Assembly: GCA_025354565.1 (NCBI GenBank)
Contig: JANXMQ010000176.1
Location: 1 to 36,483, forward strand
Direction: 5' to 3'
Source: Akkermansiaceae bacterium
Lineage (GTDB): Bacteria > Verrucomicrobiota > Verrucomicrobiia > Verrucomicrobiales > Akkermansiaceae
DNA length: 36,483 bases
In this document: positions 6,439 through 36,483 of the stretch, in pieces
Layout: every line of letters starts with the position of its first letter
Position numbering within the stretch: the first letter of the stretch is position 1
Notes under the pieces: generated by a model
Told to the model about the DNA's origin: nothing
The model's database searches: none
The model's input: only the letters and a program-made list of their open reading frames with translations
Program-made: the position numbers and the translations under genes

Positions 6439-8430
6439 CTAGGGGATGATCCGCACGCGGTCACCGGCTTCGGTCATCGTGAAGAGCTTGGCGGCATTAC
6501 CTTCGGGTACCCGGATGCAGCCGTGGGAGGCGGGATAGCCGGGGACGACGCCTTGGTGAAGGCCGAAGTCCGCGCAACTGAGGCGCTGGAAATAGGGCAT
6601 GCTGGCGTGATAGAGTGTGGAGGTCCAAGTGCGGTTCTTGTCAGTGATGACGAACTCGCCGGTGGGTGTGGAAAATCCGGGGCGACCGGTGGAGACCTTG
6701 GTCGTGAAAATTTCCACGCCATGTTCGTCGAACAACCGCGCGCGTTGCTCGGAGAGGCGGATCTCGATGTGGCGTTCCTCGCGCAGCGGGTCGCGACCGA
6801 GGAAGAGCCGCATCATTTGCACGTCACTGCGGCGGGAGGCGAAATTGATCGGCCACATGGCGTAGGCGTGGGTCCAGACGTTTTTCTTCGCTCCATATTT
6901 CAGGAGCAGGCGGGCGGTCTGGACGACCCCGGAATCGGCGGCTAACATGAGTGGGGTGATGTTGCGGTCGTTTTTAAAAAGATAGCGCATGAAGCCGGGG
7001 CGGACGGACTTGAGGAAGCTGCTAGAAACGGGCAGGCTGAACGGCGTGTTAGGATCGGCCCCGGCATTGAGGAGGTTCTTCACGGTGAGGTGGCAGCCAG
7101 TGGCGATCGCGAGGTGGAGCGGGGCTTGGCCTTCCGGCAGGCGGAGGTTCACATCCGCGCCATTTTTCAAGAGGAGGGACGCCACGCGATCCCGTTTGTT
7201 GCGGATGGCGGCTCCCAGCGGGGTGTCGCGGGTGGGAAAATGGGTGGCATTCACGGATTGTCCGCAGGCAATGAGTAGGCTCACCATGTCGGAGTCGCCG
7301 CGGGCGCTTGTCTGATAGAGGGCGCTGCCAGTGGGGCAGCCGTAGTCGGTTAGAAGCTTCACCAATGAGCCATCACCCGCGAGTGCGGCAGCCTCGACGG
7401 GTATGAGGCCGCCCGGTCCACGGGTGCTGGCCGGTGCGCCATGATCCAACAGCATTTTAACAGCGGCGCGATCACGCTGGGCCAGGGCTTTCCACAGCCA
7501 GGTATCCCAATTTCCCCCCGTGGGCTTGGCACCGTGATCGAGAAAAACCTGGAGCATGGGCAAGTTGCGCGCTTTGAAAATTCGCTCTAACGGCGACTCG
7601 GAGCTGTTGGTTAAATGGCGGGCGTTTGGGTCGGCACCGATTTTCAAAAGCAGGGCAACCCGGGTGGTATCGCGCTCCGTGACCGCCTGATCCAACAACG
7701 TGAGGCCATCCGCGCCCGGCGCGTTTGGATCGGCCCCGGCGGCGGCGAGCTTGGGCACCACGTCCAGCCAGCCCCGGTGGAAGGCGAGTTGAATGGTGGT
7801 TTCCCCGGCGGCATTGGTGGCACCCGGGTCCGCGCCGAGTTCGATCAGCGAATCCACCAGATCCCGGCGGCCGGACTCCATGGCGACGTGGAGCAGCGGA
7901 TTTCCGGCGCGGTCCTTGAGGTGCGGGTCCGCGCCAGCCTTCATCATGGAGCGGACGAAGGTGAGGCGGCCGTTGCGGATCGCCCAGGGCAGGATTCTCT
8001 CGCCATCCGGCATCAGTCCATCGGTGCGCGCGCCGATGGCTAACAGACGGTCGATGATCGCCGTTTCCCCACGGGCAACAGCGACGCCTAACATACTAAC
8101 ATGGTCCGGGGTAGTGATGTCCACGTTCGCCTTGGCGTCGAGCAGTTTATAAACCGAAGGGAGGTCGCTGTTTTCGATCGCGATCCGCAGCGGGGTGCGG
8201 CCCTGATCGTCACGCTGCTCGGTGTAAACTCCGACATCCAGCAGCCAGCCCGCGCGTTTTGCATCTTGATCCGCGACCGCTTGCAACAAGGCGCTGCCGG
8301 AGGGCTCGATGCCGGCCTTGGCGAGCTCCCGGAGACCGCGTTTTTGCGGAGAGTCGCAGGAAACCATCAACCCGGCGGCAGCGAGCAGCGGCCAGAAATT
8401 GAGAAGTCGCAACTGCGCGGGATGGGTCAC
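6439..8430 (-). CDS. Ankyrin-repeat lipoprotein with C-terminal L,D-transpeptidase (YkuD) domain
   Basis: 663 aa from a GTG at 8430. A hydrophobic signal with 'GLMVSC' near residues 20-25 suggests a lipoprotein. About twelve ankyrin repeats fill residues 60-540 (GADPNA/TPLxLA patterns). The last about 110 residues are a YkuD domain: 'RHIEIRLSEQRARLF', 'STGRPGFSTPTGEF' and 'GLHQGVVPGYPASHGCIRV' with catalytic Cys638 in the HX(n)SHGCIR signature. YkuD enzymes make 3-3 peptidoglycan crosslinks or attach proteins to peptidoglycan; ankyrin repeats bind proteins. It is probably a periplasmic, membrane-anchored cell-wall enzyme steered by a protein partner (inference). The fusion of this many ankyrin repeats to YkuD is unusual. 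The gene follows the GH10-like gene by 66 bases. Confidence 0.88.
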   Translation of the reverse strand: MTHPAQLRLLNFWPLLAAAGLMVSCDSPQKRGLRELAKAGIEPSGSALLQAVADQDAKRAGWLLDVGVYTEQRDDQGRTPLRIAIENSDLPSVYKLLDAKANVDITTPDHVSMLGVAVARGETAIIDRLLAIGARTDGLMPDGERILPWAIRNGRLTFVRSMMKAGADPHLKDRAGNPLLHVAMESGRRDLVDSLIELGADPGATNAAGETTIQLAFHRGWLDVVPKLAAAGADPNAPGADGLTLLDQAVTERDTTRVALLLKIGADPNARHLTNSSESPLERIFKARNLPMLQVFLDHGAKPTGGNWDTWLWKALAQRDRAAVKMLLDHGAPASTRGPGGLIPVEAAALAGDGSLVKLLTDYGCPTGSALYQTSARGDSDMVSLLIACGQSVNATHFPTRDTPLGAAIRNKRDRVASLLLKNGADVNLRLPEGQAPLHLAIATGCHLTVKNLLNAGADPNTPFSLPVSSSFLKSVRPGFMRYLFKNDRNITPLMLAADSGVVQTARLLLKYGAKKNVWTHAYAMWPINFASRRSDVQMMRLFLGRDPLREERHIEIRLSEQRARLFDEHGVEIFTTKVSTGRPGFSTPTGEFVITDKNRTWTSTLYHASMPYFQRLSCADFGLHQGVVPGYPASHGCIRVPEGNAAKLFTMTEAGDRVRIIP

Positions 8431-10267: not shown

Positions 10268-11161
10268 TCAGATGAGATCGGCCAAGGCGCTTTCCAAAGT
10301 AGGATAGCTGAACTCGAAGCCATCCGCTTCAAGCGCGGTAGGCAGGGCACGCTGACCGGCGAGCAGGGCGCTGGAGAACTCGCCAAGCGCGAGCTTCAGG
10401 GCGAATGGCGGCACCGGGAAAACCGCCGGGCGGTGCAGCGCGGCGGCGAGCTTGCGGGTCAGCTCGCGGTTGCGCTCCGGGTGCGGCGCGGTGCCATTGA
10501 CCGGGCCTGCTAGATTTTCCGAGAGCACGGCGTGGACGATGGCGGCGCGTAAATCAGTTAGATGAATCCACGGCATCCATTGCTCGCCAGAGCCGAGTCT
10601 GCCGCCGAGGCCGAGCTTGAAGACGCTGCGGAGTTTTTTAAACGCGCGGGCGTTTTTCCCGAGGACGATGCCGATCCGCAGGCAGACCACGCGGACCCCG
10701 AGCGACTCGGCATCCCACGCAGCCTCTTCCCAGTCGCGGCAAAGGTTGGCCAGGTAGCCACGACCTTTGCGGGAGGTGTCCGTTAGAATTTCATCGCCGC
10801 GGTCGCCGTAAATCCCGACGGCGGACGCATTCACCAACACCTTCGGACGCTTCCCATCTGGGAGCTCCGCGATGGCCTCAACAACCCGGGCGGTCATGCC
10901 CACGCGGCTGTCATGAAAGTGGCGGCGGGCGCTTTTGGTCCATCGCTGGTCGATGGGTTCGCCGGCCAGATTGATGATGGCGTGGTGCTTGGAAAAATCC
11001 AATTTCTCGGGTGTTTGCCATTGGTCGATGCCGGAAATCGGCCCCATTCCCGCCCGGCTGATCCCGGTGGTCGCGATGCCTTTTTCCGCCAACAACGCGG
11101 GCAGGCCACACCCGATGGACCCGGTCACTCCGACGATGGCGGCTCGCTTGGCAATCTGCAT
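10268..11161 (-). CDS. TIGR01777-family SDR epimerase/oxidoreductase
   Basis: 297 aa, normal length. The N-terminal NAD(P)-binding motif is GVTGSIGCGL. 'INLAGEPIDQRWT', 'NASAVGIYGDRG', 'RIGIVLGKNARAF', 'MPWIHLTDLRAAI' and 'GPVNGTAPHP' are the hallmarks of the TIGR01777 (YfcH/SDR39U1) family, atypical short-chain dehydrogenases whose substrate is not established. In place of the usual YxxxK, the Tyr in VGIYGDRG is followed by acidic residues, typical of the family. It is the first gene of a minus-strand run and diverges from lptD across a 103-bp gap containing an inverted repeat. Confidence 0.9.
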   Translation of the reverse strand: MQIAKRAAIVGVTGSIGCGLPALLAEKGIATTGISRAGMGPISGIDQWQTPEKLDFSKHHAIINLAGEPIDQRWTKSARRHFHDSRVGMTARVVEAIAELPDGKRPKVLVNASAVGIYGDRGDEILTDTSRKGRGYLANLCRDWEEAAWDAESLGVRVVCLRIGIVLGKNARAFKKLRSVFKLGLGGRLGSGEQWMPWIHLTDLRAAIVHAVLSENLAGPVNGTAPHPERNRELTRKLAAALHRPAVFPVPPFALKLALGEFSSALLAGQRALPTALEADGFEFSYPTLESALADLI

Positions 11162-27500: not shown

Positions 27501-28106
27501 CACGGCCACCACGCGGGTGCGGGTGAGCGGTGCGATTTCGCTGGCGGGCATTAGCACCCGGGCAAGGCGTTGGCGGAATTCCGCGGGCTTGAGCAGGAAA
27601 CACAGGCCGCCTAACAAAATCAACACCCCCGCCGCACCAGCCCAACGCCGCAGCAATTTCCAGTCATAAATCCGCTGCCACGGGATGCCGCGCCAGAGAC
27701 CGGCGAGTTCACCTAACAGCACTCCGCGCCACGGCGAATTTCCCTCCAGTGAGCGATCGAGCTGCACCGCGTTCACCAGCGCGTTGTCGTCGCGCCCGGT
27801 TGCCATTTCCAAGCGCCGGGCCAGCGCCGCGTCATCCAGATGCCACAGCCATGACTTGCAGGCATGGGCCAGCGCGATGGCTAACAGCAAGATAATCCCG
27901 ACGAAGCCAAGCCAGCGGCCCAGCGCGCCGAAATGCAGCCGAGCATCCGCCACCAGCCAGATTGCCATCAGCCCGCCCGCTGCCACCAGTCCGATCGCCA
28001 GCGATGTCAAGCCGCGCCCAAGCTTCAAGGCTCGCCCCGCGCGCTGCAAAATCTCGCGCGGTGACTGGCCTCCGGCCTCGTCGATGACTGATGTTTGATT
28101 CTCCAC
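24516..28106 (-). CDS. Large membrane protein with coiled-coil C-terminal half (DUF4175-like)
   Basis: 1196 aa from a GTG at 28106. Three membrane segments lie near residues 33-55, 65-85 and 150-172 ('GLVAAGGLMAIWLVA', 'LGFVGIILLLAIALAH', 'AGVLILLGGLCFLL'). Residues about 180-520 are a periplasmic beta-rich region with Ig-like character. Residues about 520-960 are helical, Ala/Glu/Lys/Leu-rich and probably coiled-coil. The C-terminal portion is Gly/Asn/Gln-rich and low complexity before a final helix. The layout matches DUF4175-type proteins of MoxR operons. Start: GTG, 9 bases after the upstream stop, with no ATG nearby. The likely role is a scaffold in an envelope complex (inference). Confidence 0.75.
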   Translation of the reverse strand: MENQTSVIDEAGGQSPREILQRAGRALKLGRGLTSLAIGLVAAGGLMAIWLVADARLHFGALGRWLGFVGIILLLAIALAHACKSWLWHLDDAALARRLEMATGRDDNALVNAVQLDRSLEGNSPWRGVLLGELAGLWRGIPWQRIYDWKLLRRWAGAAGVLILLGGLCFLLKPAEFRQRLARVLMPASEIAPLTRTRVVAVAPGDRVVARGTELAMTVTLAGEAPAEVWLVVASGAGRIDRQAAKRDGAAMTWTANFKWTEAGRYWFEAEDARSFERKIDVRAPAKVLARQLTVVPPVYTKLKSVSVAEGTAWPAIPAGSKVTLDWTFDRGVKELAVEHDEAKVSQLDKPESWKLSGQLMSNRAWNARWTDVSDLTDQARVVFNVKADEAPRVRLIQPTGEEEVLLTRDATLHLTFEASDDYGLADVTVWRGTPDKPDGRAIQTWKPGLPSFKQVIDIPLSRWLGKEESEAWFCVSATDANDVTGPGRSLSRMLVVRIVTADELKRATDTRQGEMLGSLDDLLRLQQTNLEATRVILKNGPGDVATLVERQSRVQETAVQLIASTPAGSAAWRDVLGGLVAKEMPQAVLALRDGISTKDKERQAALAKGEALEMAILARLKSLPADLRDESAGAAVRDLIGRVEALFNRQKALHERMLKATKGEGAALANDQDALADESRVVRQALADGAKSASLGDATFRAVLTKAADLMGEVKIYEQMTRAAEQSENETFPLATTTSKQVLVDLARVLEMLNTTQRSGAGDKADSVKEAAADIREKLDALTEQQRAVVEKSKALAAKNEFSPEDAAVAKELLAKKAEIAKLIEQMLTDAHALPDLRPMDELREELTKIFEDVIQQDAEQAAAGQLKPSEIAVQKEEGLLAALEKAAKTAADMEMWLPDKNETTKWLMENFDLTEMPVIPNLPLPDSFTDLVGDLLKKQEGLEDQVQDAASNNAFAVNPANGWEVADGPMPGFNAQGKSGNTPPNKNEQTGRSSGGREGESSGEMVNQRADHLEGSSIDARRTNDPQQKGQIQDDGPPADAKATGGGKAGGASQRTGMDGDAPLRTVKSPDQMLNNALAAEQALLSQQAAKSYATARLFYLRTGPLPEVARLMDESREALKNGRLADYEALHRRIVAGLRKLGEGGSTTNVTVLDGGAGGRFVGEKRLPGGADAAVPAGFQQPVDDYFRALDTP

Positions 28107-28115
28107 CGATGGAAC

Positions 28116-28805
28116 TTACGGCTTCGGTTGCGGCTTTTGATCGTCAGCTTTCGATTCCACGCGAAATAGTCGGAAGTTGGAAAAATACGATTTCCCTGCG
28201 TTCGGGGTCCCGGCGAAATTGACCACCTTCACGGAGATGAATTCCGGCTGCTGGTCCTTGCCCGCGACCAGCACGGTTTTCGGCACCGTAAATTCCCGCC
28301 CTGCCGTGCTCCATTGTTTCGAATTTCCCGGCGGCGATGGCACCTGCGCGCGATAGCACATGATCAACGCGGGCCTTCCATCCTTTGGTGCGCGGCGGAA
28401 AATGGTGCGTTTCTGTTCCGGATGCGGGTCGGTGGTCCAGCACTCCGCGTGGATCTTCGCGCCGAAATCCCAGGTCATGCAGTCCACCGCCACGCGGTAA
28501 GTCGCCCCCGGCACGACGGGCACCGGCACGCTCTCGAGTTTACCGCCCTGGTTCCCCGCGATGCCAGCGGGTAAATCCAACATCACCGCCTTGCGCCCGC
28601 CGGTTTCGCCTGGTGGGGCCATTTTCACGTAGGGCGCGTTGCCGATGTAGAACTCCTCGTCCGGGAAATTCGTGAGCCAGCCTTGCAGCGGGGACTTGCC
28701 CTCGAAGCTTCCGTTCGGCAGCAGGTTTTGTTCCCCTGCGGCGGGCGCGATGGTGGTGAGAACCAGGGAAACCAGCGCGGTGATCAGACTTTGGAGGTGT
28801 TTCAT
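28116..28805 (-). CDS. Secreted carbohydrate-binding-like protein
   Basis: About 229 aa from the ATG at 28805, chosen because it opens a signal peptide (KHLQSLITALVSLVLTTIAPAAGE). The mature part starts 'NLLPNGSFEGKSPLQGW', the usual first strand of CBM4/9-type jellyrolls. 'VVPGATYRVAVDCMTWDF' and 'SNFRLFRVES' fit the later strands of that fold. No catalytic residues. It is the first gene of the operon: it ends 9 bases before the next gene's GTG. The frame is open upstream to 28964 without protein-like features. Confidence 0.75.
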   Translation of the reverse strand: MKHLQSLITALVSLVLTTIAPAAGEQNLLPNGSFEGKSPLQGWLTNFPDEEFYIGNAPYVKMAPPGETGGRKAVMLDLPAGIAGNQGGKLESVPVPVVPGATYRVAVDCMTWDFGAKIHAECWTTDPHPEQKRTIFRRAPKDGRPALIMCYRAQVPSPPGNSKQWSTAGREFTVPKTVLVAGKDQQPEFISVKVVNFAGTPNAGKSYFSNFRLFRVESKADDQKPQPKP

Positions 28806-29003
28806 GCCAAGTTTTTTGGGGTTTCGGAAAATCGTGAGTGACCGTGAATAAACTGCGAAGAATTTCCCACGGCGTCGATGCTTGTTTGCGGAAATTGCAT
28901 CATTGTCGCGATTTTCAGACCCTGAAAGCGGGGCGTTTTCGCGCATGTCGGCACAGATCCTCAAGCTTAGGCCGCTGTCCTTGAGATACTACTTTTCTCG
29001 CGG
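28806..29003. promoter_or_regulatory. Upstream region of the MoxR/urease-accessory operon
   Basis: The promoter of the long minus-strand operon (28805 to 18244) should be here, since no gene on the same strand precedes it. I cannot name a convincing -35/-10 pair by eye. The region marks the change from tightly packed core operons to the gene-poor island that follows. Confidence 0.3.
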
Positions 29004-29290
29004 CTATTTCGCAGGTAACGCATGTTGATCGGTGAGGTAGTTGGCGAGCAGAGTGACAAGTTCATCCTTGGATGGGTCAAAACACTCGAACGCATGGGGC
29101 CAGCGAAAATCAACATGCTTGGAATGGCTGTCGGCAATGTCGGCTTGGACCCACGCGGACAAGGGGCCTCCCCCTTTCACAAACAGAAGTGGAAGACAAC
29201 GGTTCTGCTGAATCATGTGATAGAGCGGGATCGCTTCGTTATGTAGCCAAGGCCCCTAAAACGTTTGTATCCAAGACTACCACTGAACCG
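29004..29290 (-). pseudogene. Gene fragments: PIN-like N-terminus and an unidentified C-terminal piece
   Basis: On the minus strand, 29290 to 29239 reads 'GGSVVVLDTNVLGALAT', a good match to the first strand and first Asp of PIN nucleases, then a stop. One frame over, from about 29245 to 29004, comes an open stretch of 80 residues (LYHMIQQNRCLPLLF..., WPHAFECFDPSKDELVTLLANYL) that I cannot assign. Either the two are one frameshifted gene, or they are neighbouring fragments. The PIN start overlaps the plus-strand HigA start, so both cannot be intact genes. Confidence 0.45.
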
Positions 29291-29292
29291 CC

Positions 29293-29498
29293 ATGAAAGC
29301 CGCTCCACTCCTTCACAACCCCCATCCCGGCGAGACGCTCAAGGAAGCGCTCGCTGACTTGGGAATCACCCAGTATCGGCTCGCCCAAGACACCGGCCAG
29401 CCCCACAGCCGGATCACCTCCATCACATGCACGACCTCGCCGCCGCTCGCGAGGAACAGGCCGAGGCACTCGCCCTCATCCGGCCTTTGGTTGCGTGA
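29293..29498 (+). pseudogene. higA: HigA-type antitoxin with internal deletion
   Basis: The ATG at 29293 begins 'PHPGETLKEALADLGITQYRLA' followed by 'DTGQPHSRITSI', the usual HigA N-terminus and first half of its Xre-type helix-turn-helix. The next expected block (recognition helix, 'GRRxITADTALRL...FGTSPEFWLNLQ') is missing. Instead, from about 29427 in another frame, a 23-residue segment (DLAAAREEQAEALALIRPL) matches the usual C-terminal tail of HigA, ending at TGA 29496-29498. I infer a deletion of roughly 35-40 codons near 29424. No higB is visible. HigA proteins neutralise the HigB mRNA interferase and repress the operon; this one should do neither. Confidence 0.7.
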
Positions 29499-29805
29499 TA
29501 TGAGGCCGACAATCATCTGATCGAGCTCGCCTTGCCGGGGCGGCCAATACTGTCATTTTCGCCATGAAGGGTAAGAAAAATGCAACCGCAGATAAACAGG
29601 ATGAACGCAGATAAACAGACGGATAATTCAGTCTTTATCTGTGTTCTTAATCTGCGTCCATCTGAGTTCATCTGCGGTTAAAAATTCTTAAATTGATAGT
29701 ATTGCCCGTGCGGCGGAAACCATCGTCACCCACAACCTGAAAGACCTGGCGCACGGCGAATTCGTTTTCCAGGCCTCACCATTCAATCTCCCACCCAATT
29801 CCTAG
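29499..29805 (+). pseudogene. PIN-domain toxin remnant, interrupted by a repeat element
   Basis: Two pieces of one PIN-type nuclease (toxin of a VapC/COG1569-like pair). Before the element: 'YEADNHLIELAL' (29499-29534), which fits the helix with conserved acidic residues. After it: 'ARAAETIVTHNLKDL' plus a tail ending in TAG at 29803-29805, matching the classic late strand and Asp of PIN domains. The N-terminal half is missing, and the 160-bp element 29545-29704 separates the two. It lies 10 bases before the RHH antitoxin gene, its probable former partner. Confidence 0.65.
29545..29704. mobile_element. Short non-coding element with terminal inverted repeats (MITE-like), repeat copy 2
   Basis: The ends 29545-29555 (CAATACTGTCA) and 29694-29704 (TGATAGTATTG) are inverted complements at 10 of 11 positions. 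Inside, 29584-29679 is a palindromic repeat (AACCGCAGATAAACAGGATG ... ATCTGCGGTT) related to the element at 4019-4172. Flanks TTGCCGGGGCGGC and TTGCCCGTGCGGC resemble each other, as an imperfect target duplication might. It is too short to encode a transposase and would need one supplied in trans. Confidence 0.6.
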
Positions 29806-29815
29806 CCACACTGCC

Positions 29816-30070
29816 ATGAGCACCCTGACCATCCGCCTTCCCGATGACAAACACGCCCGGCTGCGCCAGTTGGCGAAGCATCGCGACATCAGCGTCAACA
29901 AGCTGGTGGAGGAACTCGCCACCATCAGCATCGCCGAGTTCGACGCGGAATCCCGCTTCCGCGCCCTTGCTGCACGAGGCTCGGTGAAAAAAGGAATCGC
30001 CATCCTCGACAAACTCGACGCGGCCTATGCCAACCCTGCCAAACCCGCCGGAGAAAATCCCTCATTCTGA
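29816..30070 (+). CDS. Ribbon-helix-helix antitoxin
   Basis: 84 aa. The opening 'STLTIRLPDDKHARLRQLAKHRDISVNKLVEELATISIAEFDAE' is a typical RHH (Arc/MetJ-type) DNA-binding fold. Residues 45-84, 'FRALAARGSVKKGIAILDKLDAAY', form the toxin-binding tail of the PIN-associated family. Such proteins bind and inhibit a PIN nuclease and repress their own operon. The upstream PIN gene is broken, so this antitoxin is orphaned. The frame itself looks intact. Confidence 0.8.
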   Translation: MSTLTIRLPDDKHARLRQLAKHRDISVNKLVEELATISIAEFDAESRFRALAARGSVKKGIAILDKLDAAYANPAKPAGENPSF

Positions 30071-30082
30071 CCCGCATGAACC

Positions 30083-30238
30083 GGCGGCGGCTTCCGCCAC
30101 GGCCAGCACCTCGCCTTCGATACCGAGCGCAACAACCCGCTGCCGAACCTCTACGTCTCCATGCTCCAGCACCTCGGCATCGAAACCGACCGCTTCGCCT
30201 CCTCCACCGGCACCATGCGCAGGCTGGAAATGGCGTGA
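30083..30238 (+). pseudogene. DUF1552 C-terminal fragment, copy A
   Basis: 52 codons reading '[27 protein letters not shown]', then '[15 protein letters not shown]' and a stop. This is the usual C-terminus of DUF1552 proteins, large secreted proteins common in planctomycetes and Verrucomicrobia. Nothing upstream continues the domain; the RHH gene lies directly before it. About 90% identical at the DNA level to copy B at 31770-31946, in the same orientation. Confidence 0.8.
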
Positions 30239-30307
30239 GACGCGTGACACTCCCTTTTTAAAACCTCAATGCTTGTTAGTCGGGACCCTTTCGATTAGTA
30301 TCCCTGT

Positions 30308-31531
30308 TCATTCCTGCACGGGAAGATCGGTGAAAAGTTGAGGAAACCAAGCGTCCAGCACTTTATGTGAAAAGGCAATGCGCAGCGGGCCTTTTTCGCT
30401 GGATGAGCCTACCAGTTCTTCGTCGAGCGCACGGCGGATGATGACGCGGGCGGCAGTGCCCTTCAGCCCGAGGATGTTAGGGACGACTCCGCGTGCAACT
30501 TCGCCTTCCAGGCAGAGGGCCTTGAGCAGGCGTTGCAGGTGTTCGCGGGTTTTGGGTTCGAGATCGACGCGGGTGAAGCGGAGGTAGCTTTCGATGCGGT
30601 CCAGTAGATTGAACGGAGAGATGAGATCCGTCATGAAGCGGATCTGGTCGAGGCAGCGATCGAGGAAAAAGCGACAAAATCGGAAGAGTCCGGCATCGCT
30701 TAAGTTGCCGCGACCATCGAAATCACTGGCGCGTTGTTGGTCGGCGGCCTGCAGGTGCTGGTAGTAAGCGGTCTGTGCGCGGGCGAAGCCACGGGACAAT
30801 GTCCAGAGCCCACCGGCGTCCAAGCCGCTGCGGATCATCGCCGCTTGGGATTGCAGCCTTGCAACCCGTCCGTTGCCATCACCAAATGGGTGAATCCATG
30901 TGAGCCGATGGTGGGCGGCGGCCGCGGCGACGATCCGCCCGGTGGCGGGAATGCTTGGGTCTGAGTAGTAATCGGCAAATCGGCGCATGAAATCGCCAAG
31001 CGCCTCATGATCCGGAGGGGTGTGTCGGCCAACATCCACATTGTGGTCGCGCATTTCCCCAGGCACCAGAGGATGGCGCTTCCCGGAGATTGAGGTGGTG
31101 AACCATTCGTCCGCCGGCAGTGCCGCATAGAATTCATGGTGCAACCATTGGATGAATTCCGGCTGAAAGACGCCAAGGTCCGGCTCATCCAACAGGCGCT
31201 GCCGCATCGCCGCTTCGGTACGGATATGGGCCACGCTCAGACGTTGGTTGCGGCGATCTTCCTCCAGAACCGAGAAATCGTCCCGCAGCGCCCGCTCAAT
31301 GTCGCGAGGCAGGGTTTTGTGCCCCTCGATCAGGTTCGAGTAGTAGCTGTTCATCTCCCGGACCAGTGTGGCCACTCCACTCCGGACAGACTTGGATGGC
31401 AGCGCAGCCGACAATTCGCCGGATTTCCGGAAAATTTCCACACTGAGGTCCGCGAGTTCAGAGCCGCCGCTTGCAGGAAGCAAAGGCTCCATCGATGTGA
31501 TTCGGCGGAAGGTGAATGATGATTGAGGCAT
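30308..31531 (-). CDS. Fic-domain protein (putative AMPylase) with N-terminal inhibitory helix and C-terminal winged helix
   Basis: 407 aa. The Fic signature HPFGDGNGR is at residues 214-222, with catalytic His214. Fic enzymes transfer AMP (or other phosphate-containing groups) from a nucleotide onto a hydroxyl of a target protein. The auto-inhibition motif (S/T)xxxE(G/N) occurs as 'SNLIEG' at 65-70 (Glu69 is the blocking residue), so this is a self-restrained class II Fic, not a FicT with a separate antitoxin. The last about 90 residues ('EVARGVVPNILGLKGTAARVIIRRALDEELV') look like a winged helix-turn-helix, suggesting DNA binding. A palindromic site lies just upstream. Start: ATG 31531. It is single and monocistronic, and sits between two copies of a DUF1552 gene tail. 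GC is like the core genome. Confidence 0.9.
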   Translation of the reverse strand: MPQSSFTFRRITSMEPLLPASGGSELADLSVEIFRKSGELSAALPSKSVRSGVATLVREMNSYYSNLIEGHKTLPRDIERALRDDFSVLEEDRRNQRLSVAHIRTEAAMRQRLLDEPDLGVFQPEFIQWLHHEFYAALPADEWFTTSISGKRHPLVPGEMRDHNVDVGRHTPPDHEALGDFMRRFADYYSDPSIPATGRIVAAAAAHHRLTWIHPFGDGNGRVARLQSQAAMIRSGLDAGGLWTLSRGFARAQTAYYQHLQAADQQRASDFDGRGNLSDAGLFRFCRFFLDRCLDQIRFMTDLISPFNLLDRIESYLRFTRVDLEPKTREHLQRLLKALCLEGEVARGVVPNILGLKGTAARVIIRRALDEELVGSSSEKGPLRIAFSHKVLDAWFPQLFTDLPVQE

Positions 31532-31536
31532 AACCG

Positions 31537-31566
31537 ATGATCTCTTCGATGAACATCGTAGATCAT
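31537..31566. promoter_or_regulatory. Inverted repeat upstream of fic (operator candidate)
   Basis: ATGATCT (31537-31543) pairs with AGATCAT (31560-31566), and CGATG (31547-31551) with CATCG (31554-31558), separated by two bases. The site lies 6 bases upstream of the Fic ATG. With the winged-helix domain of the Fic protein, autoregulation is plausible (inference). Confidence 0.5.
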
Positions 31567-31769
31567 AAATCTCTGAAATTCAACAATTTAATTTAAATAG
31601 ATGGTCTTCTTGATTAAGAAACCGTCGATCCTTGCGTCGATAAAATGGGGGGGCCAGCGTGATTTCAGGCGTCGAAAATGGAATTCTGATTTTTACTAAA
31701 GGCTCATCATCACCCAGGCATTCACCCGCGAGCCAAACCGCTCACAGGCTTTTTCCAGGAAATCCACCC

Positions 31770-31946
31770 AACCTGCCCATCATCTTCGCCGGTGGCGGCT
31801 TCCGGCACGGCCAGCACCTCACCTCCGACACCGAGCGCAACTACCCGCTGCCGAACCTCTACGTCTCCATGCTCCAGCAGCTAGGCATCGAAACCGACCG
31901 CTTCGCCTCCTCCACCGGCACCATGCGCGGGTTGGAAGTGGCGTGA
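31770..31946 (+). pseudogene. DUF1552 C-terminal fragment, copy B
   Basis: Reads '[17 protein letters not shown]' and '[20 protein letters not shown]', ending '[14 protein letters not shown]' then TGA at 31944-31946. It is slightly longer at its 5' end than copy A. The frame is open back to 31659, but that part is not DUF1552-like. The two fragments are direct repeats flanking fic. Confidence 0.8.
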
Positions 31947-32139
31947 GCCGCCTGCCACGACGAGACGATTCACAGTGTGATCTTCCCCATTTATTGGAGC
32001 CAAGTCGTTTGTTGAAATGCTTAGCCTGCCCCCTTTTAGATTGTGCGGCGAACGACCGGACACTGGTGAATCTCTTTAATTTTTGGCCTTCTCACCACCC
32101 AATTTTCTCTTAGGATGACGCACCGCAACAGGAAGCAAA

Positions 32140-33189
32140 ATGGCTGAAGGCGACATCATAAGGGGATTACTTAAAAGCCACGTTCAGAAGGACGAAGATG
32201 GATTTAGAAGGGCTGCGTCAGCGCTTATTGCCAACGAAAGAAAACTAAATCATCGTCTGTTGGCTGACGATCTGGAGCGCCTCCTCAATGGGCGCATCAA
32301 CGGAAACCATCTTACAAAGGAATTGTTTGAATGGCAGATTCCAAAAGACAAAGAGCATGGTCTACCTCTTGTTTCACTTGCGGAATCCCAAGTTACTTGG
32401 GAATCTCTCGTCTACCCTCCTAAGATAACTGCAGCCTTGCAGCAGTGCGTTGCCGAAAACAATAAAAGAGAGCTTCTTATGAATGCAGGGGTATTGCCTA
32501 AGCAAAAAATCCTGCTTCATGGTCCGCCAGGTTGTGGAAAGACGATCTCTGCGGGCGCAATCGCATCAGATTTGGGACTCCCCTTAGCAACTGTCAGATT
32601 GGATTCGGTGATGTCTTCGTTTTTAGGCCAGACAGCGTCCAACCTTAGACGCGTTTTCGATTTCATCGAGTCGTCTAAATTCGTAGTGCTTTTTGACGAA
32701 TGCGATACCTTTGCAAAGGAGCGCTCTTCAGGAAACGAGCACGGGGAATTACTCAGGGTAGTATCCTCGTTGCTCCAGATGATGGATGGATTCAAGGGTG
32801 AGAGCGTTATAATTTTTGCCACCAACCACCAGCAACTGCTTGATTCCGCTCTTTGGAGGAGATTTGACTTAATTTTAGAGCTGGGTAAACCCACGAGCCA
32901 AGATCGGGTTTTGTTGCTCCGAAAATTTCTATGCTCCCTTCGGGTCCAGACTAAAATAACAGACAAATATGCTAGAGCAATGGAAGGAGCAACTGGAGCA
33001 GACCTAAAGTGGTTTTCCCAAGAAATCATCCGTCACTGTGTAATTGAAGGGAAATCGGAAGCCACTCCAAAAGAGTTCGAAATAGCCAAAGAATCTCTGA
33101 TCTTGCGGACCAAGTCTCTCTCAGGTAGAGAGGACAGCAGACGATCGGCAAAAAAGCGTGTGTCGGGGACCAACCCCCAATCCGGGTAA
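32140..33189 (+). CDS. ietA: IetA: AAA+ ATPase of the IetAS anti-phage system
   Basis: 349 aa. Walker A GPPGCGKT (residues 128-135), Walker B 'FVVLFDECDT' with Asp186-Glu187, 'IFATNHQQLLDSALWRRFDLILEL' (sensor 1 and arginine-finger region), and a helical C-terminal AAA lid. The N-terminal ~95 residues are helical and specific to the family. IetA ATPases occur with a subtilisin-like protease, IetS. The pair was first described on the Agrobacterium Ti plasmid (incompatibility/plasmid exclusion) and later shown to confer phage resistance in a survey of defence genes. The start is supported by AGGAAG seven bases before the ATG. ietS follows after 6 bases. AT-rich third codon positions differ from the core genes. 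Confidence 0.88.
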   Translation: MAEGDIIRGLLKSHVQKDEDGFRRAASALIANERKLNHRLLADDLERLLNGRINGNHLTKELFEWQIPKDKEHGLPLVSLAESQVTWESLVYPPKITAALQQCVAENNKRELLMNAGVLPKQKILLHGPPGCGKTISAGAIASDLGLPLATVRLDSVMSSFLGQTASNLRRVFDFIESSKFVVLFDECDTFAKERSSGNEHGELLRVVSSLLQMMDGFKGESVIIFATNHQQLLDSALWRRFDLILELGKPTSQDRVLLLRKFLCSLRVQTKITDKYARAMEGATGADLKWFSQEIIRHCVIEGKSEATPKEFEIAKESLILRTKSLSGREDSRRSAKKRVSGTNPQSG

Positions 33190-33195
33190 AATAAT

Positions 33196-35592
33196 ATGGA
33201 CCGCGATCGCCAGCATTTACCCCTCCCCATAGCCTCTTCTCCCTTAACCCGTCGGAAAAGACCGGCTCCGACAAGGCCGCGTGGTGATCGAGCTTCTCAC
33301 GGAGCGCAAATATTAGAAGAGGCTGCAGTGGTCAGTATCGCGCTACTAAAACGTGCAGCGCCTCCACTAGCGGGACTGAACCCGGCAAACATTTTCAAAT
33401 TACAGTTAGTCGAGGGACGCCAATTAGACGATGATCAGATTCGTTTGATGGGTTTAAGTGTTTTGTCGAAGACACCTGGTGGAGCAATAATTGTTGGCAG
33501 TCCCGATTCGGAATTAACAGCCCTTCACGCACGACTCTCAAGTTACGCTGCGCCAAATGGACCAAAGTACGGGGAGTTTGATTCGGTTGAGTCTATCTCG
33601 GTCATCGAGGCAAATGACAGGATTGGCCAGCGCCTCAGGCAAAATCCCGTAAAAATGGGAGAGATCGCGGCATTGGATGTTGAGCTATGGCGATGGGACG
33701 AAAAATCAAAATGTACAACACAATTGTCTGAACTGCAGATGGCATTGCAGGCTGCCGGGATGTCAATGCCCGATTACTGGTTGGGAGAAGGAATCTGCAT
33801 TGCAAGGATTAAAGTGGATGCAGAAACCCTTCAGGCGATTTCTGAATGGCCAGCGATTAAAGAAATCGACAGACGTCCCGAACCTGAATTTTCTGTCTCA
33901 GAGTATTTAAATCTGACAGCCAACGATCTAACGATTTCTCCGCTACCGGAAAATCCGGTGGGTATTTTAGTCTTCGACAGTGGTGTAACCTCAGGGCATC
34001 CGCTTTTACAATCAGTCATCGGTGACGCACAAGTTTTCTCTGAAGCTTTTATCGCCAAACATATTTCGGGCACGCAAGATGATTCTGGCCATGGCACCTG
34101 CGTAGCTGGTCTGGCTGTATATGGAAATTGCCTTGAGGCCATCCGAAGCGGGGTATGGAAACCTCATGCCCAACTGTTTTCAGCGAGAGTCTTGGACAAT
34201 AACAGCGAGTACGATGATGATTCGCTCATAGAGACTCAGTTCGAGAAAGCCCTTCTGTATTTTCTGGAAAATTACCCCTTAATAAGGATTGTAAACTTGT
34301 CTTTGGGGTCTTGCTACGACAAGCTAGGAGATTCTCGTCATCAGCTTCGCTTCGCTGCCGTCCTGGATGAAATCGCTTGGAGATACCGAGACAGAGAAGT
34401 GGTTTTTGTGGCGGCAGCCGGCAATATACCGGATCCCAGCAACAGCGAAATCGAAGAGGTAGCTGAGAACTATCCCCATTATTTGATGGATCAGGCATGC
34501 CGTCTTACCGATCCCGCAAGTTCAGCTTTGGCCTTAACGATCGGTGGCATTTCATGTGGTATAATTGCGAATTACCGAACGGATGGGATCGTCTCTATTC
34601 TTGTCAGCGGGGGGAAAGGTAATCCTTCTCCATTCACACGCATAGGGCCGGGATTCAATAATGCAATTAAACCGGAACTTGTAGAGGAAGCTGGAGACTA
34701 TGTCATAGAAGCTGGGGGGATTTATCGAAGACACGGTGTCCTTTCGTTAAATCGGGATATCGCCTCCAGTTTACTTACACACCGCCATGGTTCGAGCTTT
34801 GCTGCTCCACTAGTTGCAAATATGGCGGCTAGAATTTCTCAAGCTTACCCACAACACTCCAGTAATTTAGTTCGCGCTCTCTTGGTGCATTCCGCTAGAA
34901 TTCCATCTCAAAGGCCGGACTACTTTCCTGCTGATAACCACGCACCGGAGAATCTAAAGACCTATGGCTATGGTCGGCCAATTTTGGATACGGCCCTGGC
35001 AGCAGCGGGAAATGACGCGTGGCTCCTAAATGAAGGTACTATCAGCTTGGATAGTTTTCTAGTTTTTGAACTTCCTGGCATTCCCGCAGAGTTCGTTTCT
35101 AAAAAAGGAAAAAGGCGCTTGGCTGTCACTGTGGCCTTTGATCCCCCCACACGTGCAAGTAGAGCAGACAGCTATTTGGGTGTAACGATGGAATATTCGC
35201 TCTGGAAAAATATAAGCCTGGTCACACTGCAAAATGCATTCAGAAACTGGAACCGAGACGAAAAGGAAGCCTTAGAAGATGGAGTTCCACCCGGATTGAC
35301 GGGACTCGCCGGGAAAATTGATCTTGTGCCGAAAAGTGGGGTACGCAACACGAGCACTGTTCAGCATTCATGGGTTGACCTTCAAAGGGCTGGAAATCTA
35401 GTGCCTGAAAGTCCACTTTACCTCGTGTTAGTATGCCAAAGAAAATGGGCACCCGCCGAAATTGAGAACCAACGATATTCGGTAGTTATGTCCATTTCGC
35501 ACGAAGACACTAGTGTTGATCTCCATGCGGCGCTGCGACTTCAGCCAAAAATTCAAGCGATTCTTACAGCTCGCGGTAGAGCGCAATCATAA
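33196..35592 (+). CDS. ietS: IetS: subtilisin-like (S8) serine protease of the IetAS system
   Basis: 798 aa. The S8 catalytic triad is complete: Asp261 in 'ILVFDSGV', His299 in 'DDSGHGTCVAGL', Ser534 in 'HGSSFAAPLVA', and oxyanion Asn410 in 'VAAAGN'. A ~250-residue N-terminal domain of unknown function and a ~250-residue beta-rich C-terminal domain flank the protease. No signal peptide, so it acts in the cytoplasm, unlike most subtilases. In IetAS the ATPase is thought to regulate or feed the protease; the trigger and substrates are not known to me. The alternative ATG nearest the start is not supported; 33196 is right after the ietA stop (6-base spacer), implying coupling. Confidence 0.9.
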   Translation: MDRDRQHLPLPIASSPLTRRKRPAPTRPRGDRASHGAQILEEAAVVSIALLKRAAPPLAGLNPANIFKLQLVEGRQLDDDQIRLMGLSVLSKTPGGAIIVGSPDSELTALHARLSSYAAPNGPKYGEFDSVESISVIEANDRIGQRLRQNPVKMGEIAALDVELWRWDEKSKCTTQLSELQMALQAAGMSMPDYWLGEGICIARIKVDAETLQAISEWPAIKEIDRRPEPEFSVSEYLNLTANDLTISPLPENPVGILVFDSGVTSGHPLLQSVIGDAQVFSEAFIAKHISGTQDDSGHGTCVAGLAVYGNCLEAIRSGVWKPHAQLFSARVLDNNSEYDDDSLIETQFEKALLYFLENYPLIRIVNLSLGSCYDKLGDSRHQLRFAAVLDEIAWRYRDREVVFVAAAGNIPDPSNSEIEEVAENYPHYLMDQACRLTDPASSALALTIGGISCGIIANYRTDGIVSILVSGGKGNPSPFTRIGPGFNNAIKPELVEEAGDYVIEAGGIYRRHGVLSLNRDIASSLLTHRHGSSFAAPLVANMAARISQAYPQHSSNLVRALLVHSARIPSQRPDYFPADNHAPENLKTYGYGRPILDTALAAAGNDAWLLNEGTISLDSFLVFELPGIPAEFVSKKGKRRLAVTVAFDPPTRASRADSYLGVTMEYSLWKNISLVTLQNAFRNWNRDEKEALEDGVPPGLTGLAGKIDLVPKSGVRNTSTVQHSWVDLQRAGNLVPESPLYLVLVCQRKWAPAEIENQRYSVVMSISHEDTSVDLHAALRLQPKIQAILTARGRAQS

Positions 35593-35847
35593 AAGTGCGT
35601 TGCTGAAAAGAAGGGAAAATGGGGTAATTGCTCTCGGGAATGTGGGTCAGTGTGCAAAAAATCAACAAAATCGGGTTCATTACGGTTTCGAGTCGACAAC
35701 TTTGCCGTCTTTCCAAGAGAGGAGGGGGACGAGCATGGGAGGTGAGGTTAGAAGTTATTGGGGAAGAGTTATTGGGGAAGAGGGATGGATTGACGATTGA
35801 GGATTGTTGATTTTGGATTTTTGATTTGAAGAAGAATTGAGGTGTTT
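35593..35847. other. Intergenic region with short repeats and a gene fragment
   Basis: Follows ietS. Between 35680 and 35736 the minus strand reads 'LVPLLSWKDGKVVDSKP' and a stop, matching the last 16 residues of the small gene at 36114-36281. It is a leftover 3' copy. 35753-35780 contains a tandem 'AGTTATTGGGGAAG'. 35785-35835 is a GATT-rich, low-complexity stretch also seen near 3990 and 4180. No clear terminator. Confidence 0.45.
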
Positions 35848-36117
35848 TCATGCGGCGGCGAAGTCGAGGTCGCGGGTGGCACGGACGGCGGGATTGGGGA
35901 GGGTTTCGCCTTTGGCGAGACGGTGAGCGATTTCGTCGCGGACGATGGCGCAGAGATCGGCGTAGGTGGCTTCTTCCTGTTCGCCGTGGCAGCAGCCACC
36001 GTAGTAGAGATCCGGGCAATAGCCGATGTAGCACTGATCCTCATCGGACCAACGGACGAAGCGGTGATAACGGTCCGGCTTCGCGTGGCTATGCCGGGAC
36101 AAGTCTTCTGGTTTCAT
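35848..36117 (-). CDS. HicB-like antitoxin
   Basis: 89 aa from the ATG at 36117, which overlaps the stop of the preceding small gene (ATGA). 'YHRFVRWSDEDQCYIGYCPDLYYGGCCHGEQEEATYADLCAIVRDEIAHRLAKGE' is the HicB N-terminal partial-RNase-H fold, with the 'D..YIG.CPDL' signature and the following helix. HicB proteins neutralise HicA mRNA interferases; no HicA is visible here, but a zeta-like kinase lies upstream. No DNA-binding domain is visible at the C-terminus. Confidence 0.7.
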   Translation of the reverse strand: MKPEDLSRHSHAKPDRYHRFVRWSDEDQCYIGYCPDLYYGGCCHGEQEEATYADLCAIVRDEIAHRLAKGETLPNPAVRATRDLDFAAA

Positions 36118-36281
36118 GGTTTGGTGGCGACGACTTTGCCGTCTTTCCACGAGAGCAGGGGGAGGTTCCAGCGTTTGTGTTCGGCGCGGAGTTACTTGGC
36201 CATGGCTTTGGCGGCGGCTTGGCCGCAGGCGATGAATGCGGGCTGCTCATTGGTGAGACGAATGGTTTTGTATGGTTTCAT
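36114..36281 (-). pseudogene. Small gene with in-frame stop, between zeta-like kinase and HicB-like gene
   Basis: An ATG at 36281 begins a 55-codon frame ('KPYKTIRLTNEQPAFIACGQ') interrupted by TAA at 36192-36194, then continues in the same frame ('LRAEHKRWNLPLLSWKDGKV') to a TGA that overlaps the HicB-like ATG. Because coding-like sequence continues on both sides, one nonsense mutation is likelier than two genes. A diverged copy of its 3' end lies at 35680-35736. The start is 16 bases after the kinase stop. I do not know the family's function. Confidence 0.6.
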
Positions 36282-36297
36282 TGGCGTAGGAAATCTT

Positions 36298-36483
36298 TCA
36301 TTTGTTGAAGAGTGATTTTGCGGAGTCGAAAAGCAAGTACGCAGGTTGGATGCTGTTATTTCGGAAGGTCCAGTCGTCTGAGAGTGGGGCGTAGATTTCC
36401 AGAAAGTGGGCCAGACTGCGCGAGAATCTGCGTTTCACGTCGGATTCTGGAACGGAATGCCCGCCCAAAGGTAAATGGAGACT
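36298..36483 (-). CDS. Zeta-toxin-like kinase, C-terminal part (runs off window)
   Basis: 61 residues to the end of the window: 'HSVPESDVKRRFSRSLAHFLEIYAPLSDDWTFRNNS'. This is the usual C-terminal pattern of zeta-toxin-like AAA-type kinases (COG4185), 'VPExxVRRRFxRSLxNFxxLYxPLxDxW'. The P-loop would be beyond the window. Zeta toxins phosphorylate UDP-GlcNAc or other substrates; COG4185 members are less well characterised. It is the first gene of a three-gene set: kinase, small protein, HicB-like antitoxin. Confidence 0.65.
   Translation of the reverse strand, partial: SLHLPLGGHSVPESDVKRRFSRSLAHFLEIYAPLSDDWTFRNNSIQPAYLLFDSAKSLFNK

Follow-up and report, generated by a model that had tools for sequence, protein, structure and literature searches.

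The 36,483-nucleotide stretch of Akkermansiaceae DNA analysed here (contig JANXMQ010000176.1 of assembly GCA_025354565.1, hereafter the window) carries two adjacent genes, ietA for an AAA+ ATPase and ietS for a protease of the S8 (subtilase) family, which almost certainly form an IetAS anti-phage operon that is intact and was acquired horizontally. IetAS is known as a defence family, and the pair in the window, an intact member in Akkermansiaceae, is complete and, to judge from its sequence, probably functions in defence. We propose that in this pair infection triggers a cytosolic subtilase that is driven by a motor, and assign this explanation as a whole, identity and mechanism taken together, a probability of about 0.7. 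The copy also points to the exact residues on which such an activity would depend, namely S534 of IetS and K134, E187 and the pore-loop residue F161 of IetA.

Family assignment of the ietA-ietS pair

A preliminary description of this DNA had named the pair IetAS from its domains and had listed a lack of matches to the IetA and IetS profiles as evidence that would speak against the assignment. When searched against PADLOC, IetA of the window matched PDLC02196 with 294 bits (E 4.2e-88, residues 6-325) and IetS matched PDLC02198 with 333 bits (E 9.2e-100, residues 19-795), in both cases with bit scores well above those of the controls. Four further AAA proteins from the window genome, encoded by open reading frames (ORFs) of loci L015-L018 (L019 shares its open frame with L015), scored 26-131 bits on the IetA profile and matched its AAA core only, and two generic subtilases from genomes of the same genus, taken from the weak survey matches L010-L012 described below, scored 33-44 bits on the IetS profile, both preferring the 'subtilase' model. 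The pair also shares gene order and gene sizes with IetAS (IetA/IetS in PADLOC, IteA/IteS in NCBIfam): both profiles are matched over most of their length, the genes are adjacent on the same strand with the ATPase gene first, and the S8 triad and the Walker A and B motifs are intact. The two genes lie six bases apart on the forward strand at exactly the coordinates given in the preliminary description (Table 1).

Other assignments fitted less well. The TRIP13 profile gave 55 bits on IetA, as against 294 bits for the IetA profile, and so TRIP13 is not its best match as it would be in a CBASS TRIP13/Cap6 protein. The FtsH model TIGR01241 reached 92 bits (cut-off 600) and covered model positions 197-403 of 598 only, which does not correspond to an FtsH-type protein with a fused zinc protease. 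IetS shares its S8 domain with the mycosins of type VII secretion, but it is far below the cut-off of their model (TIGR03921, 65 bits versus 279), has no signal-like start in the hydropathy scan and is partnered by an AAA gene.

Conservation of gene pairing and active sites

We collected loci by IetS matches in two surveys. Of 59 genomes in a survey of relatives, 11 had an IetS match at E 1e-3, including three weak matches (L010-L012, E 2e-5 to 9e-4), which we took to be generic subtilases and left out; their short loci contained no IetA match. A survey of the class yielded an IetS match in 23 of 384 genomes at E 1e-10, the own genome counted, i.e. the occurrence is patchy. Together these searches provided 26 further loci, or 28 with the window and its near-identical copy L001. 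An ATPase gene lies directly upstream of ietS in 26 of the 28 loci, window and twin counted, even though the loci had been found via IetS alone, and the two exceptions without IetA contain short IetS ORFs (L047, 579 residues; L071, 332 residues). For the alignments of 28 IetS and 28 IetA sequences we omitted L047 and L071 and added one phage pair (L072) and one plasmid pair (L073) to the 26 locus pairs.

All 28 IetS sequences contain D261, H299, N410 and S534, and all 28 IetA sequences contain G128, K134, D186, E187, N229, R240 and R241. The complete operon with all catalytic residues that had been claimed beforehand is indeed present, with two intact ORFs, an invariant S8 triad and invariant Walker residues, and the earlier numbering of the Walker A lysine as K134 and of the catalytic serine as S534 is correct. 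The PADLOC IetS or IetA models matched all 28 members of each alignment at E 1e-5. Between the near-identical copies in the window and in L001 the ratio of nonsynonymous to synonymous substitution rates (dN/dS) is 0.16 for ietA and 0.12 for ietS, indicating that both proteins have evolved under purifying selection. The family-model matches, the pairing and the dN/dS values show that the association of the two genes is more than chance. The identification as IetAS is borne out on three sides, by the family models, the invariant active sites and the conserved gene pairing.

Resemblance of IetA to protein-remodelling motors

IetA consists of N-terminal helices (residues 3-53) and an AAA core comprising about residues 94-325, within which residues 124-248 match the Pfam family AAA (PF00004, E 1.5e-29). 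The core contains the sequence F161-L162-G163, an aromatic-hydrophobic-glycine loop that we take to be the signature of AAA+ motors and unfoldases that pull polypeptides, and R240-R241, presumably an arginine finger pair. An AlphaFold2 model of IetA had a mean predicted local distance difference test (pLDDT) score of 77.8. In the sequence comparison p97, aided by its two AAA domains, was the top match, and it was also the top match by Foldseek, whereas VIA-align of the model placed PAN, Rpt and FtsH at the head of its list, with Z of about 22-23 in a near tie with p97 and Vps4 at 21-22. Judged by sequence and model, the AAA core of IetA is of the protein-remodelling kind. IetA shares the AAA core and the pore loop with p97, PAN/proteasome and FtsH, of which PAN and FtsH are motors that cooperate with a protease. 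IetA differs from these proteins in that its partner is a separate subtilase instead of a metalloprotease or a proteasome and in that it has a single AAA domain. As to the N-terminal helices, the model predicts three of them in residues 3-53, which raised the possibility of an MIT domain; the structural matches lay mostly in residues 60-329.

Regions of IetS outside the protease domain

The preliminary description had found no nameable function for the parts of IetS on either side of the protease domain. Pfam names nothing there either, but both parts lie within the span matched by PDLC02198 and are, hence, normal parts of the IetS family. A sequence search of the PDB with residues 1-245 gave no match below E 1 and a single match at E 1.2, and a search with residues 599-798 gave no match up to E 10; a low-confidence model suggests that the C-terminal region is perhaps mostly beta. 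That model, built with AlphaFold2 from six sequences (window, L001 and four relatives from viral_contigs), had a mean pLDDT of 37.4 and was not used for fold searches. In a hydropathy scan IetS had neither a signal peptide-like start nor a clear membrane segment (top 19-residue mean 1.55), suggesting that IetA and IetS should meet in the cytosol.

Horizontal transfer of the block

The two genes, 72 bases before them and 46 after them form a 3.57-kb block that is shared at 95.9% DNA identity with L001, the flanks being unrelated; no other match was found within the 18.4 kb of L001. L001 was the sole relative found in a named genome collection. It belongs to a metagenome-assembled genome labelled Akkermansia muciniphila, and whole-genome comparison assigned its contig (genome G424) to a different genus within the family of the window; the tree labels that family Akkermansiaceae. 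IetA and IetS of the two loci are 96-97% identical, and the spacing between the genes is 7 bases in L001. For an L001 protein whose sequence we read as FtsK-like, identity to the window genome was 57% and 78% over the two main matched pieces. The module has a G+C content of 0.48 in the window, as compared to 0.56 in the flanks, and among the 26 alignment members other than the phage and the plasmid pair G+C was below that of the flanks in 19. Finally, the four IetS sequences from the genus of the window fall into four separate, well-supported clades of the tree, which is the pattern of repeated transfer. Taken together, the comparison points to an apparently recent move of a compact block from one genus of the family to another, in whichever direction, and as the block contains little beyond the two genes it suggests that the pair is self-sufficient.

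We also looked for traces of the insertion. At a length of 20 or more, positions 28000-36483 contain no inverted repeat pair and three families of direct repeats, none of which brackets the module with a copy on either side. An empty site, i.e. a contig in which the flanks are joined, did not occur among the matches listed, either for 73 genomes of the same genus searched with the window end or for 10 genomes of the genus of the twin searched with its locus. In L001 short dispersed repeats of that genus are located just left of the block (about 6834-6865) and about 240 bases right of it (about 10683-10732), and these possibly mark the landing site.

Proposed mechanism and alternatives

In the mechanism that we propose IetA, like p97, PAN or FtsH, would form a ring powered by ATP, whose aromatic pore loop would pull or remodel a protein, while IetS would be a cytosolic subtilase that is quiet in healthy cells. 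Upon infection, IetA and IetS, in contact with each other, would engage a phage replication protein or a disturbed replication complex. IetA would then hand the substrate to IetS or switch IetS on, a link from trigger to protease that we infer, and proteolysis by IetS would halt the infection, through destruction of the phage target or death of the cell. For this course of events, from ring assembly to outcome, we estimate a little under an even chance. If it holds in its strictest form, IetA and IetS would constitute an ATP-dependent protease of new make-up, in which a threading motor resembling p97, PAN or FtsH feeds or fires a cytosolic subtilisin for the purpose of immunity. This we put forward tentatively. 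The conserved aromatic pore loop, the invariant triad and the strict pairing fit it; we know of no other subtilase that is driven by an AAA protein, although no search aimed at one was made.

The literature provides a few points of contact. According to an excerpt of one study, several systems, ietAS among them, are activated by phage replication proteins (PMC10732053). An excerpt of another statistically links IetAS to phage resistance in P. aeruginosa and calls the mechanism unknown (PMC11878078), and, likewise in excerpt, a second paper treats it as unknown or yet to be worked out. Among the papers listed by searches of the open-access literature, none dealt with the mechanism of IetAS.

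Several observations weigh against our interpretation. Neither NCBIfam equivalog cut-off is reached (IteA 241 bits versus 510, IteS 134 bits versus 900), so that its function is assigned by analogy with remote family members; the pair is accordingly a divergent member to be filed in the wider IetAS family and not in the narrow IteA/IteS set, and its activity is not guaranteed. Apart from its 97% identical twin, its nearest full-length relatives in the sets searched are L053 (44-45% identity) and a plasmid pair (about 32%). Generic AAA proteins reach as much as 131 bits (E 2e-38) on the IetA models, meaning that bits separate them from IetA and E-values alone do not, and TRIP13 models match all 28 IetA sequences as well, if more weakly. 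Promoter-like sites occur at chance level (4 versus 3.9 expected), none of them upstream of ietA. The likeness of IetA to known motors is confined to the AAA core, no proteasome-type docking tail was seen on IetA by eye, and one phage homologue has a leucine at pore-loop position 161. The best match in the sequence comparison and in Foldseek is p97, which is not known to form a unit with a protease. With IetS modelled at a pLDDT of 37, the interface between IetA and IetS is not visible. Finally, IetAS is grouped with toxin-antitoxin systems in an excerpt of PMC11878078.

This last grouping agrees with an alternative in which IetA is a switch and not an unfoldase: it would sense infection and remodel or release a zymogen-like inhibitor at the N-terminus of IetS, whereupon free IetS would cut host proteins and the cell would die in a manner resembling toxin-antitoxin systems. 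About 250 residues precede the protease domain of IetS, a long region is likewise found in the other 27 aligned sequences, and the poor IetS model hints at two alternating beta-alpha units in the N-terminal part, reminiscent of subtilisin propeptides. A comparison by hhalign with two Inhibitor_I9 propeptide sequences, however, yielded a probability of 0.1, two sequences making a weak test, and a profile of IetS residues 155-242 retrieved no propeptide from among the PDB chains searched. The I9 propeptide suggested by the order of strands and helices is supported by neither search and survives only as part of this alternative, which we regard as unlikely.

Less probable still, IetS might cleave and activate a separate pore-forming or toxic effector, with IetA as the sensor. 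In fungi a subtilisin-like protease acts in this way in an immune setting, HET-Q2 on gasdermin, according to an excerpt of PMC12881547. The block shared with L001, however, consists of the two genes and about 120 bases and includes neither a third gene nor a gasdermin gene; the contig ends 891 bp 3' of ietS, and gasdermins were not looked for next to ietS at the other loci, so that an effector encoded elsewhere would have gone unnoticed. That the pair is a host protease for protein quality control or regulation, as are the AAA-protease pairs of FtsH and PAN-proteasome, would fit the conserved active sites but is very improbable in view of the patchy presence, the unrelated versions within one genus, the plasmid and phage pairs and the lowered G+C content.

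Phage- and plasmid-borne relatives

An ietAS-type pair is present in Escherichia phage vB_EcoS-683R6 (L072), a phage of lambdoid look, where it lies between the replication genes and the antitermination gene Q and is annotated as 'FtsH' and 'S8 family peptidase'. Relatives of its IetS occur in 18 viral_contigs loci (L074-L091), 16 of them at 99-100% identity. In the same collection we found no close relatives of window IetS, of two small alignments or of the protein from the plasmid-borne IetA-IetS pair (L073). Further pairs of AAA and S8 genes are located near the holin gene of a Paenibacillus larvae phage (L094, 609-4021) and among helicase and exonuclease genes of an Acutalibacteraceae phage (L092, 1742-5181). 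Two phage-borne IetA proteins have a C-terminal helix-turn-helix, one above the Pfam cut-off (L096 1677-2786, PF13412, E 1.6e-5) and one below it (L095 990-2147, PF12840, E 2.4e-5), which possibly serves self-regulation; in window IetA Pfam gave no match to such a domain.

Genomic surroundings

The window is one entire contig of a 5.1-Mb assembly of 257 contigs. Its first 28 kb look chromosomal, with genes for PriA, UreD, a UreG/CobW-type protein and a squalene/phytoene synthase, and give way to an accessory part that holds a Fic gene, an ORF resembling an antitoxin and, after these, ietA-ietS. Of the Fic, toxin-antitoxin and zeta-like neighbours described beforehand, the Fic gene and an antitoxin-like ORF were recovered by Pfam, whereas no zeta-like gene was found in the part of the window ORFs that was scanned (batches of 6 including ietA and ietS, 10 including one repeat, and 9).

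Table 1. Positions of the ietA-ietS operon, its functional residues and associated features in the window
Feature	Position	Strand	Basis
ietA, AAA+ ATPase, 349 residues, ATG start	32140..33189	+	ORF, profile and Pfam matches, AlphaFold2 model
IetA Walker A GPPGCGKT, residues 128-135 (K134)	32521..32544	+	K134 in 28/28 homologues
IetA pore loop 1, F161-L162-G163	32620..32628	+	aromatic at 161 in 27/28, G163 in 28/28
IetA Walker B end, D186-E187	32695..32700	+	28/28 homologues
IetA R240-R241	32857..32862	+	28/28 homologues
Gap of six bases, ietA stop to ietS start	33190..33195	+	ORF coordinates
ietS, S8 protease (subtilase), 798 residues, ATG start	33196..35592	+	ORF, profile and Pfam matches
IetS N-terminal region, residues 1-256, without Pfam name	33196..33963	+	within PDLC02198 span 19-795
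IetS peptidase S8 domain, residues 257-593	33964..34974	+	Pfam Peptidase_S8, PF00082, E 3.5e-34
IetS catalytic D261	33976..33978	+	28/28 homologues
IetS catalytic H299	34090..34092	+	28/28 homologues
IetS oxyanion-hole N410	34423..34425	+	28/28 homologues
IetS catalytic S534	34795..34797	+	28/28 homologues
IetS C-terminal region, residues 594-798	34975..35589	+	within PDLC02198
Block common with another genus of the family, 95.9% DNA identity, unrelated flanks	32068..35638	+	one 3,573-column alignment
HicB/ribbon-helix-helix antitoxin-like ORF	29816..30070	+	PF05534, E 4.8e-5, barely above its cut-off
Fic gene	30308..31531	-	PF02661, E 3e-14; top PADLOC match SoFic, 102 bits

The Fic gene is flanked by a 170-nt direct repeat with 92% identity between its copies (30081-30250 and 31789-31958), and sequence like that of 31768-31946 is present at 75-76% on two further contigs of the window genome. 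At 6439-8430 on the reverse strand a single ORF fuses many ankyrin repeats with a YkuD L,D-transpeptidase domain. Downstream of ietS, the stretch 35846-36075 codes for a small ORF that is HicB-like by eye, with no Pfam match; this stretch recurs in at least 10 of the 73 genomes of the same genus, in two of them twice.

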